From: a virus
DNA length: 32,385 nt
Reading direction: 5' to 3' (one strand)
IMG/VR virus record: IMGVR_UViG_3300020391_000009
Span: 1 to 32,385 of that record
Shown here: in pieces, positions 4,457 to 10,963 of the stretch
How positions within the stretch are numbered: position 1 is the first letter of the stretch
Layout of the letters: the number at the start of each line of letters is the position of its first letter
Notes under the pieces: model-generated
Told to the model about the DNA's origin: nothing
What the model saw: the letters and a program-made list of their open reading frames with translations, nothing else
Database searches by the model: none
Made by a program: the position numbers and the translations under genes

Positions 4457-4711
4457 CTAAGTAACTCTATTAGTACCGTCTAGGTTTCGCAACAGTTTTA
4501 TTTGACGAGGCTTCCGATAATCTCTCTCTATATATCCCCGGTTCTCAAGGGCAGATAGATGATCATGTACTACAGAGTTTGACTTCACATTCATAGCTTT
4601 CTTGATCTCGTGGTAGGACGGCATAGTATAGTTAGCCTCAAAGTGATCAATCAACATTTTTAAAAACTCTAGGTTTCGTGGGGTCGGGGGAAAACTATTC
4701 ATCTTTTGCAT
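4457..4711 (-). CDS. LexA-like winged-helix DNA-binding protein without protease domain
   Basis: This 84-residue protein closely follows the LexA N-terminal domain. It has a TPRNLEFLKMLIDHF first helix, then MPSYHEIKKAMNVKSNSVVHDHLSALENRGYIERD (residues 30-64), as in LexA where PSYREI...KS.SSV.HL..LE..G.I is conserved. The S24 autoproteolytic domain is missing, so it cannot self-cleave by the usual SOS route. It may be a repressor, an anti-repressor or a competitor for host LexA sites. It is the last gene before the leftward terminator and overlaps the ERF gene by 17 bases. Its coding sequence contains two copies of AAACCTAGA (minus strand; 4479-4487 and 4668-4676). Confidence 0.85.
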   Translation of the reverse strand: MQKMNSFPPTPRNLEFLKMLIDHFEANYTMPSYHEIKKAMNVKSNSVVHDHLSALENRGYIERDYRKPRQIKLLRNLDGTNRVT

Positions 4712-7128: not shown

Positions 7129-7665
7129 TCAACTGGTAGCCCCTCCCTTTTTATCGGAATTATACTTGGAAGGGTCTTCCATGTATTGTGCCCATTTTTT
7201 GAGCCGTTGGTACTCCAAAATGTTTTTAAGATATTCTTTTCGCATACGATTATGGACATCATACAGCCCCTTAACGTAGCGATAATACATCTTTAGACCT
7301 CTATCAGAGGCTTGTATTACAATACGATTGCCCTCTGTGCGGTTGTCTATCATTCCAAGATCTCGGCATTCGGCAAAAATATTGCGTACTGTTTTCTCAC
7401 TGGCTTCAATGTTGGAAGATATTTCCTGAAAGGTTTGCCATCTTCCCTGCACCCTTGCCAACAATGTTTCTCTAGAAAAGGGGCGATGAAATATACCACG
7501 ATTGAGAAACGCTACCCATGTTCTATCCACATCATCAATGACATGAACTTGTCTCTGAAAGTACTGTTTGTGTATCGCTATCTCCGTTAACAAACTGCCC
7601 TCAACAATTTTAGGAAGATAAAAATTGTCAGCCACATCACTGAAATTGTTCTGCATTGTATTCAT
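7129..7665 (-). CDS. Winged-helix (MarR-like) DNA-binding protein
   Basis: A 178-residue protein. Residues 76-106 (WQTFQEISSNIEASEKTVRNIFAECRDLGMI) form a helix-turn-helix, followed by a wing (DNRTEGNRIVIQASDRGL, 107-124). A long C-terminal helix likely mediates dimerisation. This is the MarR-type winged-helix arrangement used by transcription regulators. The start overlaps the serine recombinase stop as ATGA, so the two are co-translated; regulation of recombination or lysogeny is inferred from that. No ligand site is recognisable. Confidence 0.7.
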   Translation of the reverse strand: MNTMQNNFSDVADNFYLPKIVEGSLLTEIAIHKQYFQRQVHVIDDVDRTWVAFLNRGIFHRPFSRETLLARVQGRWQTFQEISSNIEASEKTVRNIFAECRDLGMIDNRTEGNRIVIQASDRGLKMYYRYVKGLYDVHNRMRKEYLKNILEYQRLKKWAQYMEDPSKYNSDKKGGATS

Positions 7666-8447
7666 TTGTCTCCCTCCACTCTCTTAACTATCTTTGATAT
7701 TGTAGAGGCATACCACGAGCCTCCCTGACGAGCGGTGCTGAACCCTCGTGTATTAAACTCCTCTGCTATGGACCTATAGCTATGGCCGGCATTGAGGCGG
7801 TACTGAATGTCTGGGTACCACATATTGGCAAACGCATCGGCATCGTTACTAACCCGGATACCAGCATTCTCTCTGGCAAGGTCCATATTGTCATGCATAC
7901 CCAGCTTATAGACTGTCTTACCATTCTTAGCGGTATGGAAGCCCTTACTGTTTATCTCTGCATTGATACGGCTCAAGCCCTGCTTAGTCGCACTGCTCAA
8001 TCGCTCTGCGGTGGCCTGAGAGATCATACTCTCCTGCCCCAAGATAGATATCAGAGCATCAGTATCGAGATTAGAGTAGGCTGGCTTGTCGCAGATTATA
8101 AGCTTGCACTTGTCCTTAGCTAGTGCCTCTTCAAAGAACTTCATAGCGTGCCATGCTTTTCGTGATAGTCGGGAGAAGTCTGCAATAATTATATGCCCCT
8201 TCCCTCCCTTCTTTTTAGACTTAACAGCATCTCTGAGACAGGCATTCAAACCGGGTCTATCGGCAAACGGCATTCTCCCGGAGTAACCCTCGTCTATATA
8301 CCATTTGACCTCATGCTTGCCACCATTGAGGTAGGTACGGATCATATGCTTCTGCCGTTCAATATCCTGCTTGTCGGTCGATACCCGGACGTAGGCATGA
8401 TATACACCCTTATGCGGTTTACCGGGCTCGTATATATTATGCGCCAT
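7662..8447 (-). CDS. Serine recombinase (resolvase/integrase family)
   Basis: This 261-residue enzyme breaks and rejoins DNA at paired sites through a phosphoserine link. YVRVSTDKQD (19-28) carries the nucleophile Ser23. DEGYSGR and DFSRLSR (Arg93, Arg96) complete the catalytic arginine set. AERLSSATKQGL begins the long helix. Residues 200-250 (AFANMWYPDIQYRLNAGHSYRSIAEEFNTRGF) form the DNA-binding helix-turn-helix. It is much shorter than the large serine integrases (450 residues or more), so it may be a resolvase, an invertase (for instance of fibre DNA) or a small integrase. TAATG overlap with the upstream gene and ATGA with the downstream one. Confidence 0.92.
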   Translation of the reverse strand: MAHNIYEPGKPHKGVYHAYVRVSTDKQDIERQKHMIRTYLNGGKHEVKWYIDEGYSGRMPFADRPGLNACLRDAVKSKKKGGKGHIIIADFSRLSRKAWHAMKFFEEALAKDKCKLIICDKPAYSNLDTDALISILGQESMISQATAERLSSATKQGLSRINAEINSKGFHTAKNGKTVYKLGMHDNMDLARENAGIRVSNDADAFANMWYPDIQYRLNAGHSYRSIAEEFNTRGFSTARQGGSWYASTISKIVKRVEGDK

Positions 8448-9175: not shown

Positions 9176-9564
9176 AGTGGACCAACAATAAATATAAGGC
9201 CGTCAAGACTACAATCGATGGCATCACATTCGACAGCAAACGAGAGGCCAAGCGTTATACAGAGCTGAAGTTGCTGGAGAAAGCCGGGATGATTACTCAC
9301 CTAGAGTTACAGCCGGTATATCAAATCACAGTAAATGGGGTAGACATATGCAAATACAAGGCAGACTTTCAGTACTTCACCGTAAGAGCGGAAGGGAACG
9401 AGCAGTGCTACAATTCGAAAGGAGAGTGGCAGACACCAACGAAGACCGGTCAAAAGGAAGGTCAGATAGTGGAGGACGCAAAAGGCTTCAAGACACCTAT
9501 ATATCGTTTAAAGAAGAAGCTGGTAGAGGCTTGTTATCCCGGTACGCAGATCAAGGAAGTATAA
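9172..9564 (+). CDS. DUF1064 family PD-(D/E)XK nuclease-like protein
   Basis: This 130-residue protein matches DUF1064, which has a restriction-endonuclease-like fold and is common near phage replication genes. It has NKYKAVKTTIDGITFDSKREAKRY (6-29), LEKAGMITHLELQPVY (35-50), YKADFQYF (62-69) and VEDAKGFKTPIYRLKKKL (100-117). Asp65, Glu101 and Lys104 are candidate active-site residues. A Holliday-junction or flap endonuclease role has been suggested for relatives. The GTG start overlaps the Arc stop (GTGA), so it is coupled to the repressor gene. Confidence 0.85.
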   Translation: MKWTNNKYKAVKTTIDGITFDSKREAKRYTELKLLEKAGMITHLELQPVYQITVNGVDICKYKADFQYFTVRAEGNEQCYNSKGEWQTPTKTGQKEGQIVEDAKGFKTPIYRLKKKLVEACYPGTQIKEV

Positions 9565-9566
9565 CA

Positions 9567-9878
9567 ATGGGCCAGTTTATGCATCTCTTTGACAAGGCGA
9601 GCCCAATGCCACTGCATGACTTTGCTCACCACAAAAAAGCCAAGATAGTACAACTGAAATACCGTGCGTTATTTACAGCCGTAGCCCGGAGATTAGGCCG
9701 GTTCAGTCTTAATCAGATAGGCAATATATTTAACCGGGATCACTCATCGATTATGTACTACAGCAAACGCCATGATGATTTGGTCAATACGGACGATAAC
9801 TATTCTTTGCTCTACATGGACCTAGAGGACAACATCAAACAACTTATGGATCAGAAGCATGGAAATCGTGACGTATAG
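9567..9878 (+). CDS. DnaA domain IV-like DNA-binding protein
   Basis: This 103-residue protein carries AVARRLGRFSLNQIGNIFNRDHSSIMYYSKRHDDL (38-72). It mirrors the DnaA C-terminal signature (S..IG..F..RDHSTV..A...I), in which the RDHS segment contacts the DnaA box. There is no AAA+ ATPase, so it can bind DNA but cannot act as an initiator alone. ATG 9567 is chosen because longer upstream starts overlap most of the DUF1064 gene. The gene lies just upstream of a lambda-O-like initiator, so it may recruit or displace host DnaA at the phage origin. The family assignment is strong; the role is inferred. Confidence 0.8.
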   Translation: MGQFMHLFDKASPMPLHDFAHHKKAKIVQLKYRALFTAVARRLGRFSLNQIGNIFNRDHSSIMYYSKRHDDLVNTDDNYSLLYMDLEDNIKQLMDQKHGNRDV

Positions 9879-10050
9879 TTTGATCGTGATCCTACTTAGA
9901 GATGTTAACGTGCCGGACAGTACTCACATCCGGAGGCTAACCTTTACCAACTTAGATGACTGTAGACGTATGGCGATAGCTCTTGATCAAGAAAGAGATC
10001 CAGTGGTCCGTAAGAAACAATGCCGGTCGATGGTAACCTATGAGAGATAG
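9859..10050 (+). CDS. Small hypothetical protein
   Basis: A 63-residue protein with a hydrophobic first strand or helix (YSLIVILLRDVNV), then TFTNLDDCRRMAIALDQ and two Cys (39, 55). I recall short phage proteins with a similar beta-strand, 'tleaC..a' helix and final Cys layout, of unknown function. It overlaps the gene before by 20 bases and the gene after by 11, typical of this operon. ATG start with GGA 8-10 bases upstream. Confidence 0.55.
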   Translation: MEIVTYSLIVILLRDVNVPDSTHIRRLTFTNLDDCRRMAIALDQERDPVVRKKQCRSMVTYER

Positions 10051-10963
10051 CGAGAAGATTGCAGAGATTAAGGTGGCCCGGAAGGAGTTACTCCAGCCTC
10101 CCAAGAAGCATACGATGTCTGTAGATAATACAGTAGCTCCCTCCCCTTTTTCTGTCATGCCTAGCCGGGTCTTTGCTGATACACGCATACAGAATGCATC
10201 GATCCGGGTGCTGGGAACCCTGTGTTGCCATGCAAACAAATACTCCGGTATAGTCTTCACAAACCAGCTCACTATCGGTAATAGGCTGGGCATATCAAAA
10301 CAGGCTGTCAGTCGGCAGATGCGATTGCTGGAGAAGTGTGGCTATCTTAAGAAGATATATAAAGAGAACCCACTCCGAAAGAAAGGGAGGAAGGGTGCAA
10401 CATGGAGAGTTATCTATGATCCAAAGACTAAGGATGAAGATCTTATTGCTCATAACAAACCGGATTATGTCGAGGCTCAGGATGCTGAAGAGACGCTGAA
10501 GGTCATTGCTAAAAGTCAACCTGACGTTGACTTATCGACTAAACCTACTGATACAAAAGTCAACCTGGGAGTTGACCAACAGGCTAAAAAAGTAAACCCG
10601 GAGGTTGACCAGAACTATAGTACTATAACTAATAGTACTAGTATAAGGGAAATTAGTACAAAGATCTGTACAGTCTATGCAAAGGAACGAGAGACAAGGC
10701 TAGGATCGATGGCAGGATGGCAGAACGATGAGAGGCAGATAGCCATAGTCGAGAAGTACTTAGCCTCAGGTTATAGCAAGAACACAATACTTAAGACCTT
10801 CTTAACATCTTTGAACTACTACGCTAAGAGTGGTAAACGCCCACCCTTCTCTCTTGGTTACTACGATAGTTACTTTAATAAAAAGGACAAGCCGACTGTT
10901 CAAGATGTCATAAGAAAGACTGTGGGTCGTGCTAAATTTACCAGCCGTACAAAACATAGATGA
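10040..10963 (+). CDS. Replication initiator, winged-helix, lambda-O-like
   Basis: This 307-residue protein probably binds the phage origin and recruits host helicase. Residues 38-128 form a winged helix: PSRVFADTRIQNASIRVLGTL, then the recognition region LTIGNRLGISKQAVSRQMRLLEKCGYLKKI (77-106) and a wing. Residues 130-215 are a low-complexity, polar linker whose DNA contains inverted-repeat iterons. Residues 215-285 form a helical domain (YSKNTILKTFLTSLNYYAKSGKRPPFSLGYYDSYF) like the C-terminal partner-binding domains of DnaD/O-type proteins. This three-part plan, with the origin inside the linker, is that of lambda O. No primase or helicase gene is nearby, so host loading factors would be used. 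Start: ATG 10040, overlapping the previous gene. Confidence 0.8.
   Translation: MRDSEKIAEIKVARKELLQPPKKHTMSVDNTVAPSPFSVMPSRVFADTRIQNASIRVLGTLCCHANKYSGIVFTNQLTIGNRLGISKQAVSRQMRLLEKCGYLKKIYKENPLRKKGRKGATWRVIYDPKTKDEDLIAHNKPDYVEAQDAEETLKVIAKSQPDVDLSTKPTDTKVNLGVDQQAKKVNPEVDQNYSTITNSTSIREISTKICTVYAKERETRLGSMAGWQNDERQIAIVEKYLASGYSKNTILKTFLTSLNYYAKSGKRPPFSLGYYDSYFNKKDKPTVQDVIRKTVGRAKFTSRTKHR
10511..10645 (+). other. Putative replication origin (iterons plus AT-rich palindromes)
   Basis: Three inverted-repeat units: GTCAAC-5 nt-GTTGAC (unit 10511-10531), GTCAAC-6 nt-GTTGAC (10555-10576) and GTAAAC-6 nt-GTTGAC (10588-10609), each preceded by AAAA. Unit starts are 44 and 33 bases apart, multiples of a helical turn of about 11. 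An AT-rich stretch follows, with the palindromes TATAGTACTATA (10616-10627), TAGTACTA (10633-10640) and TACTAGTA (10636-10643). The order iterons then AT-rich segment, inside the initiator gene, is that of lambda ori. Confidence 0.7.

Follow-up and report, generated by a model that had tools for sequence, protein, structure and literature searches.

The stretch of DNA analysed here (the window) is a virus contig of 32,385 bases. It comes from a podovirus, as the PHROG matches of its portal, major head protein, tail tubular proteins and terminase indicate; the large terminase shares 63% identity with its counterpart in Methylophilales phage MEP301. A scan of window ORFs and proteins revealed no phage DNA polymerase, and MEP301 has been reported without one (PMC8024684).

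The product of the gene at 10040-10963 has an HTH_36 match above cut-off and PHROG matches to replication-initiation families, those to the PHROG 'O-like' families being weak. Upstream, 9552-9878 encodes a small protein resembling DnaA domain IV (PF08299, E 4e-6, below cut-off). Downstream, 11116-11361 matches a PHROG of unknown function and 11342-11764 matches the terminase small subunit. Elsewhere, at 4457-4711, lies the gene for a protein that consists of a LexA DNA-binding domain alone; its neighbours encode an Erf-type annealing protein and a RecE-like exonuclease.

An iteron array inside the initiator gene

The features of the locus, with the evidence on which each is assigned, are as follows.

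10040..10963, + strand: initiator gene, 307 aa, with winged-helix DNA-binding domain, disordered linker with iterons, and helical C-terminal domain (HTH_36, PHROG, AlphaFold model)
10298..10339, + strand: recognition-helix codons, residues 87-100, starting with K87 and containing Q88 and R92 (AlphaFold model helix; top covarying columns)
10514..10630, + strand: disordered-linker codons, residues 159-197, coinciding with the iteron array (pLDDT under 50)
10515..10531, no strand assigned: iteron 1, GTCAAC-CTGAC-GTTGAC, 5-nt spacer (sequence, relatives, codon nulls)
10559..10576, no strand assigned: iteron 2, GTCAAC-CTGGGA-GTTGAC, 6-nt spacer (sequence, relatives, codon nulls)
10592..10609, no strand assigned: iteron 3, GTAAAC-CCGGAG-GTTGAC, 6-nt spacer (sequence, relatives, codon nulls)
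10610..10670, no strand assigned: AT-rich tract adjoining the iterons, presumed strand-opening element (AT content, family pattern)
10631..10939, + strand: helical C-terminal domain codons, residues 198-300, presumed replisome-recruiting part (AlphaFold model, fold search)

The initial annotation, made from the sequence, had described three units of the form GT(C/A)AAC-5/6 nt-GTTGAC in the low-complexity linker codons of a winged-helix initiator. All three are present, each after at least AAAA, with starts 44 and 33 bp apart. The linker also lies where it had been placed: residues 159-197 are the sole stretch of at least three residues with pLDDT under 50 in the AlphaFold model, the rest of which is ordered. 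Base composition predicts about 0.008 units per 32 kb, and a search of both strands found only these three in the window (the contig may be incomplete). When codons were resampled with the peptide held fixed, three units arose in 1 of 20,000 draws; when synonymous codons were shuffled within the gene, no draw of 20,000 produced them. As described, unit 1 has its left half-site in a different codon frame from those of units 2 and 3, while the right half-sites all share one frame.

The spacings fit helical phasing approximately; across the family described below, they cluster at 24-26, 32-36 and 43-48 bp. The AT-rich DNA with AGTACT palindromes at about 10610-10665 is present, and the palindromes are kept only in close relatives. 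The first 60 bp after the array are 72% AT, compared with 56% for the gene and 66% after synonymous shuffling. Cumulative GC skew, proposed as a check on an origin near 10.5 kb, has its minimum at 9241, 1.3 kb away, and gives no independent support; it is uninformative because this minimum coincides with a switch in gene direction.

Thirteen IMG/VR loci encode proteins 67-89% identical to the window initiator, and all carry an array of 2-4 units. At unit positions 1 and 2 the spacer varies among relatives between 5 nt (read as KSQPDVD or QSKRDVD) and 6 nt (KVNPQVD or KVNLGVD), so the frame of the left half-site moves from one relative to another. Among the codons for invariant residues in eight relatives, all six that touch half-sites are identical, versus 40 of 165 elsewhere (Fisher p 0.0003). 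The expectation that half-sites would be conserved while codons drift was thus borne out, and because half-sites stay, frames move and invariant codons are fixed, we conclude that the array is kept as DNA and not as peptide. Units 2 and 3 do encode similar peptides (KVNLGVDQ and KVNPEVDQ), as would be expected if a repeated peptide in the low-complexity linker had given rise to the DNA repeats incidentally. That explanation is contradicted by the codon-shuffle nulls, by frame switching between and within genes, by the six invariant codons and by the covariation reported below, and we regard it as exceedingly improbable.

A profile search of the genome contigs with the close-relative alignment returned no relatives. 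A DNA pattern search found ten contigs, unrelated to the window, that have GTCAAC-type palindromes and no initiator (L029, L032, L033, L036, L041, L043, L045, L046, L048 and L049); these were set aside as chance occurrences or other operators. In two of them, with no initiator on the contig, GT(C/A)AAC-N6-GTTGAC palindromes occur in pairs at a distance of 32 bp (L029:8077-8114 and L046:1538-1575), the L046 pair in non-coding DNA immediately before a gene. These pairs are possibly operators or origins of other systems.

Intragenic iterons across the initiator family

A terminase search fetched at least 80 loci, and a winged-helix profile found the initiator in 52 loci of this first set. Three further scans brought the total to at least 316 homologous initiator loci, with 97 representatives below 85% identity. 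Most family members carry 2-4 palindromic iterons in the disordered linker, followed by AT-rich DNA. The same part of the gene holds other iteron sequences in other members, with differences from subclade to subclade, including ACAAGC-N4-GCTTGT, ACAACC-N4/6-GGTTGT, GACAAC-N6-GTTGTC and TATAAC-N7-GTTATA. In an unbiased dyad search, 36 of 52 initiator genes had at least two copies of a palindrome, compared with 2.8 expected (maximum 7) under a codon-shuffle null. After dereplication, repeated palindromes were found in 32 of 47 initiator genes versus 6 of 294 control pieces from other genes of the same loci. Neighbouring spacing clusters differ by roughly one helical turn (mean resultant 0.57 at 10.5 bp, the loci being non-independent), and in 36 of 61 genes the half-sites are distributed over at least two codon frames.

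The AT-rich flank recurs as well. The 80 bp after the last iteron average 70% AT against 53% for the gene, and are higher in 60 of 60 genes. The first 60 bp average 73% AT against a synonymous-shuffle expectation of 63%, with 61 of 62 genes above it (Wilcoxon p 9e-12).

The intragenic architecture is not universal in the family. Members with short proteins (about 200-267 aa with the isolate MEP301 included, 239-267 aa without it) lack intragenic iterons and also lack the linker (short-initiator loci L085, L091, L096, L098, L099, L104, L128, L129 and L015); their origins must therefore lie elsewhere. Loss of the half-sites with retention of the protein, which the initial annotation had named as evidence against its reading, was found only among these short proteins. 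Linker-bearing members retain iterons, often with a different sequence that follows the recognition helix of the member's own protein.

Covariation of iteron bases with the recognition helix

For 63 genes with NNNAA(C/G) iterons, we ranked every winged-helix column by its mutual information with each half-site position, no columns being chosen in advance. The top columns for half-site positions 1, 2, 3 and 6 were residues 87, 87, 88 and 92, respectively, all within the recognition helix; at position 6, residue 61 scored nearly as high as residue 92, the measure being uncorrected for kinship. Residue 92 is Arg or Lys with C6 in 42 genes and Gln, Glu, His or Leu with G6 in 20; one gene pairs Asn with C6. 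The rule for this residue was fixed before new loci were read, and its 'Gln' class was later widened to 'non-basic' for four genes; with that widening, it was correct in 40 of 40 held-out genes (Arg/Lys with C6 in 25/25; non-basic with G6 in 15/15, comprising 11 Q, 2 E, 1 H and 1 L). At residue 88, Gln occurs with C3 or A3 and Pro with T3 (4/4).

Residue 87 proved less simple. A first rule, set before the hold-out, in which Lys or Arg goes with G at position 1, was correct in only 4 of 10 held-out Lys/Arg genes when scored literally; it missed in part because weak extra dyads had entered the groups and in part because Arg pairs with G at position 2. Lys or Arg accompanies G at position 1 or 2 in 17 of 17 genes, and Gln occurs without such a G in 44 of 46, under a rule revised after the hold-out ('G at 1 or 2', dyads being defined more strictly) that is not a clean prediction.

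Close contrasts on a tree built without the recognition helix all agree with the residue-base pattern, and none opposes it. For residue 87 they are the window clade (K, GTCAAC) versus L053/L334 (Q, CACAAC), L237 (K, GTCAAC) versus L229 (Q, CACAAC), and L268 (R, CGCAAC) versus L120 (Q, TACAAC). For residue 88 they are the L087 group (P, TATAAC) versus L301 (Q, CACAAC), and L180 (P, TATAAC) versus L200 (Q, AACAAC). For residue 92 the contrast is L067/L133 (R, C6) versus L142/L143 (Q, G6). Three independent switches on well-supported branches were counted for residue 87 and two to three for residue 92. Formal sign and independent-pair tests lack the power to reach significance because the family shares ancestry and offers few independent switches.

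One further gene has iterons with a 33-bp period and half-sites GTTAAG/GTTTAG (L062:4588-4710). Its K87 and Q92 predict G1 and G6, as observed; it was not counted in the statistics, as the AA core is missing from one arm.

Read from the sequences, this covariation strongly suggests that the initiator binds the iterons within its own gene. It also bears on three other accounts of the repeats. Sites for a different phage protein, either the DnaA-domain-IV-like product of 9552-9878 or the LexA-like one, would be consistent with the occurrence of DnaA-like homologues in about 20 family loci; iterons also occur in members in which no DnaA-like gene was found (several loci are truncated), the window has fewer perfect or near DnaA boxes than chance would give, and the covarying residues belong to the initiator. 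We consider such a binder very unlikely. The same low standing applies to a packaging site (pac or cos-type) recognised by the small terminase subunit. Repeated sites are possible targets of terminases, and the small subunit gene lies 0.3-3.8 kb downstream of the initiator in 47 loci, but the array remains inside the initiator gene however far away the terminase gene lies, is gone when the initiator has no linker, and has bases that covary with the initiator's recognition helix.

The third account accepts the initiator as the binder and assigns the sites to autoregulation, as an intragenic operator or roadblock, instead of to an origin. Covariation indicates binding and not its purpose, and the winged-helix fold is common to many transcription repressors. 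Against autoregulation, the array lies on average near 61% of the gene length, far from the promoter; the AT-rich tract beyond codon expectation would be needless for a roadblock; and the PHROG matches of the protein are to replication initiators. We judge this account unlikely, though less so than the other two.

A more specific proposal, to which we give a little under even credence, is that recognition approaches one residue to one base (residue 87 Q, K or R reading A2, G1 or G2; residue 88 Q or P reading C3 or T3; residue 92 basic or non-basic reading C6 or G6) and that single changes would switch specificity. Because the iterons sit in the initiator gene, protein and target would always be inherited together. 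If this is true, related phages that share a host could avoid cross-triggered or titrated replication.

The predicted origin and its relation to known systems

Taken as a whole, the sequence of the locus combines intragenic iterons selected as DNA, an AT-rich flank, and covariation between iteron bases and the recognition helix. We consider it very probable that the array segment is the phage replication origin, bound by the initiator, which would open the AT-rich tract and recruit host machinery. The repeats that were first observed are confirmed, and their interpretation as an origin is supported in its architecture and strengthened by the covariation. In the mechanism that we envisage, the winged-helix protein would bind each of the three palindromic iterons, presumably as a dimer, and the bound initiators would align on one face of the DNA and strain it. 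This strain would open the AT-rich stretch (10610-10670), after which host helicase and polymerase would be brought in by the helical C-terminal domain, the helicase being loaded for theta replication. Dependence on the host is proposed because the scanned proteins included no recognisable phage polymerase. Dimerisation, opening and recruitment are modelled by analogy on lambda and SPP1 (PMC7466680, PMC6316719).

In lambda (ori/O) and the Stx phages P27 and 933W, the origin likewise lies in the middle of the initiator gene, with iterons bound by initiator dimers and an AT-rich tract on one side; these phages need the host replisome, and extra iterons lengthen their initiator protein (PMC7466680). 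The window resembles them in the position of its predicted origin, in having several iterons and an AT-rich tract on one side, and in its presumed dependence on the host replisome. The imperfect palindromy of its iterons (GTMAAC-N5/6-GTTGAC) suits binding by a dimer, and dyads occur in most family genes. The description of the locus as lambda-O-like therefore stands for its architecture and presumed mechanism, but not for membership of the protein family: the window protein has no match to Pfam Phage_rep_O at E up to 1, and this family is absent from those listed for 56 relatives. Unlike in lambda, family iterons here are 24-48 bp apart, the spacer within the iteron can be one base longer or shorter, with a shift of codon frame, and the iteron sequence differs widely between members. 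No helicase loader of the lambda P type was identified among the ORFs scanned. The Bacillus phage SPP1 (oriL and the gp38 replisome organizer) possesses two origins, oriR lying about 13 kb from oriL, whereas the units of the window form a single set; SPP1 also supplies a loader (gp39) and a helicase (gp40) of its own, for which no counterparts were recognised in the window.

Covariation between an initiator DNA-binding domain and semi-palindromic iterons is known among PLE satellites, whose RepA (RepA_N) proteins have exchanged specificity modules between elements (PMC8263062). The phage family shares this relationship, and RepA_N-type structures (4pt7 and 4pql, Z about 7.8) are among the fold neighbours of the window initiator, tied with many unrelated winged helices. 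The model shows a winged helix of a common type, and its fold neighbours have no diagnostic value. The RepA_N profile has no match in the window protein at E up to 1, and by Pfam the initiator is neither a lambda O protein nor RepA_N. A fold search with its C-terminal domain matched no known fold, a result that does not in itself show a new one. The PLE origin is intergenic whereas the phage array is intragenic, and PLE covariation involves whole-domain blocks among five elements, not single residues. Closer to the window is MEP301 gp55, annotated as hypothetical, with a homologous winged helix (41% identity over 101 aa) and the same place upstream of the terminase genes in a phage reported without a polymerase (PMC8024684); it differs in its length of 201 aa and in having neither a linker nor intragenic iterons.

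As intragenic origins are already known, the predicted origin is ordinary in kind. What is unusual is the breadth of the family, the diversity of its iterons and a residue-to-base pattern that can be read. How replication starts in short-tailed phages without a DNA polymerase was left open for MEP301 (PMC8024684) and for the cyanopodoviruses of clade MPP-C, a separate lineage (PMC9860041). Judged from its genes, a large, unstudied family of such phages appears to start replication inside the gene for the protein that recognises the start. A predicted origin and initiator are now available for dozens of uncultured relatives. Pairing of initiator and site can be read from sequence, since site bases change with the amino acids that read the DNA; the pattern predicts which initiator should fire which origin, and the family offers a natural series for studying how the specificities of initiator and origin change together.

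Two other features of the window were observed. The contig ends (1-413 and 31973-32385) form a 413-bp direct repeat, 89.7% identical and within similar genes, which reflects either duplication of a gene or mixed strains whose ends overlap imperfectly. The gene at 7662-8447 encodes a serine recombinase with both Resolvase and Recombinase domains, whereas only the N-terminal domain is reported for that of MEP301 (PMC8024684); this suggests that the phage may integrate.
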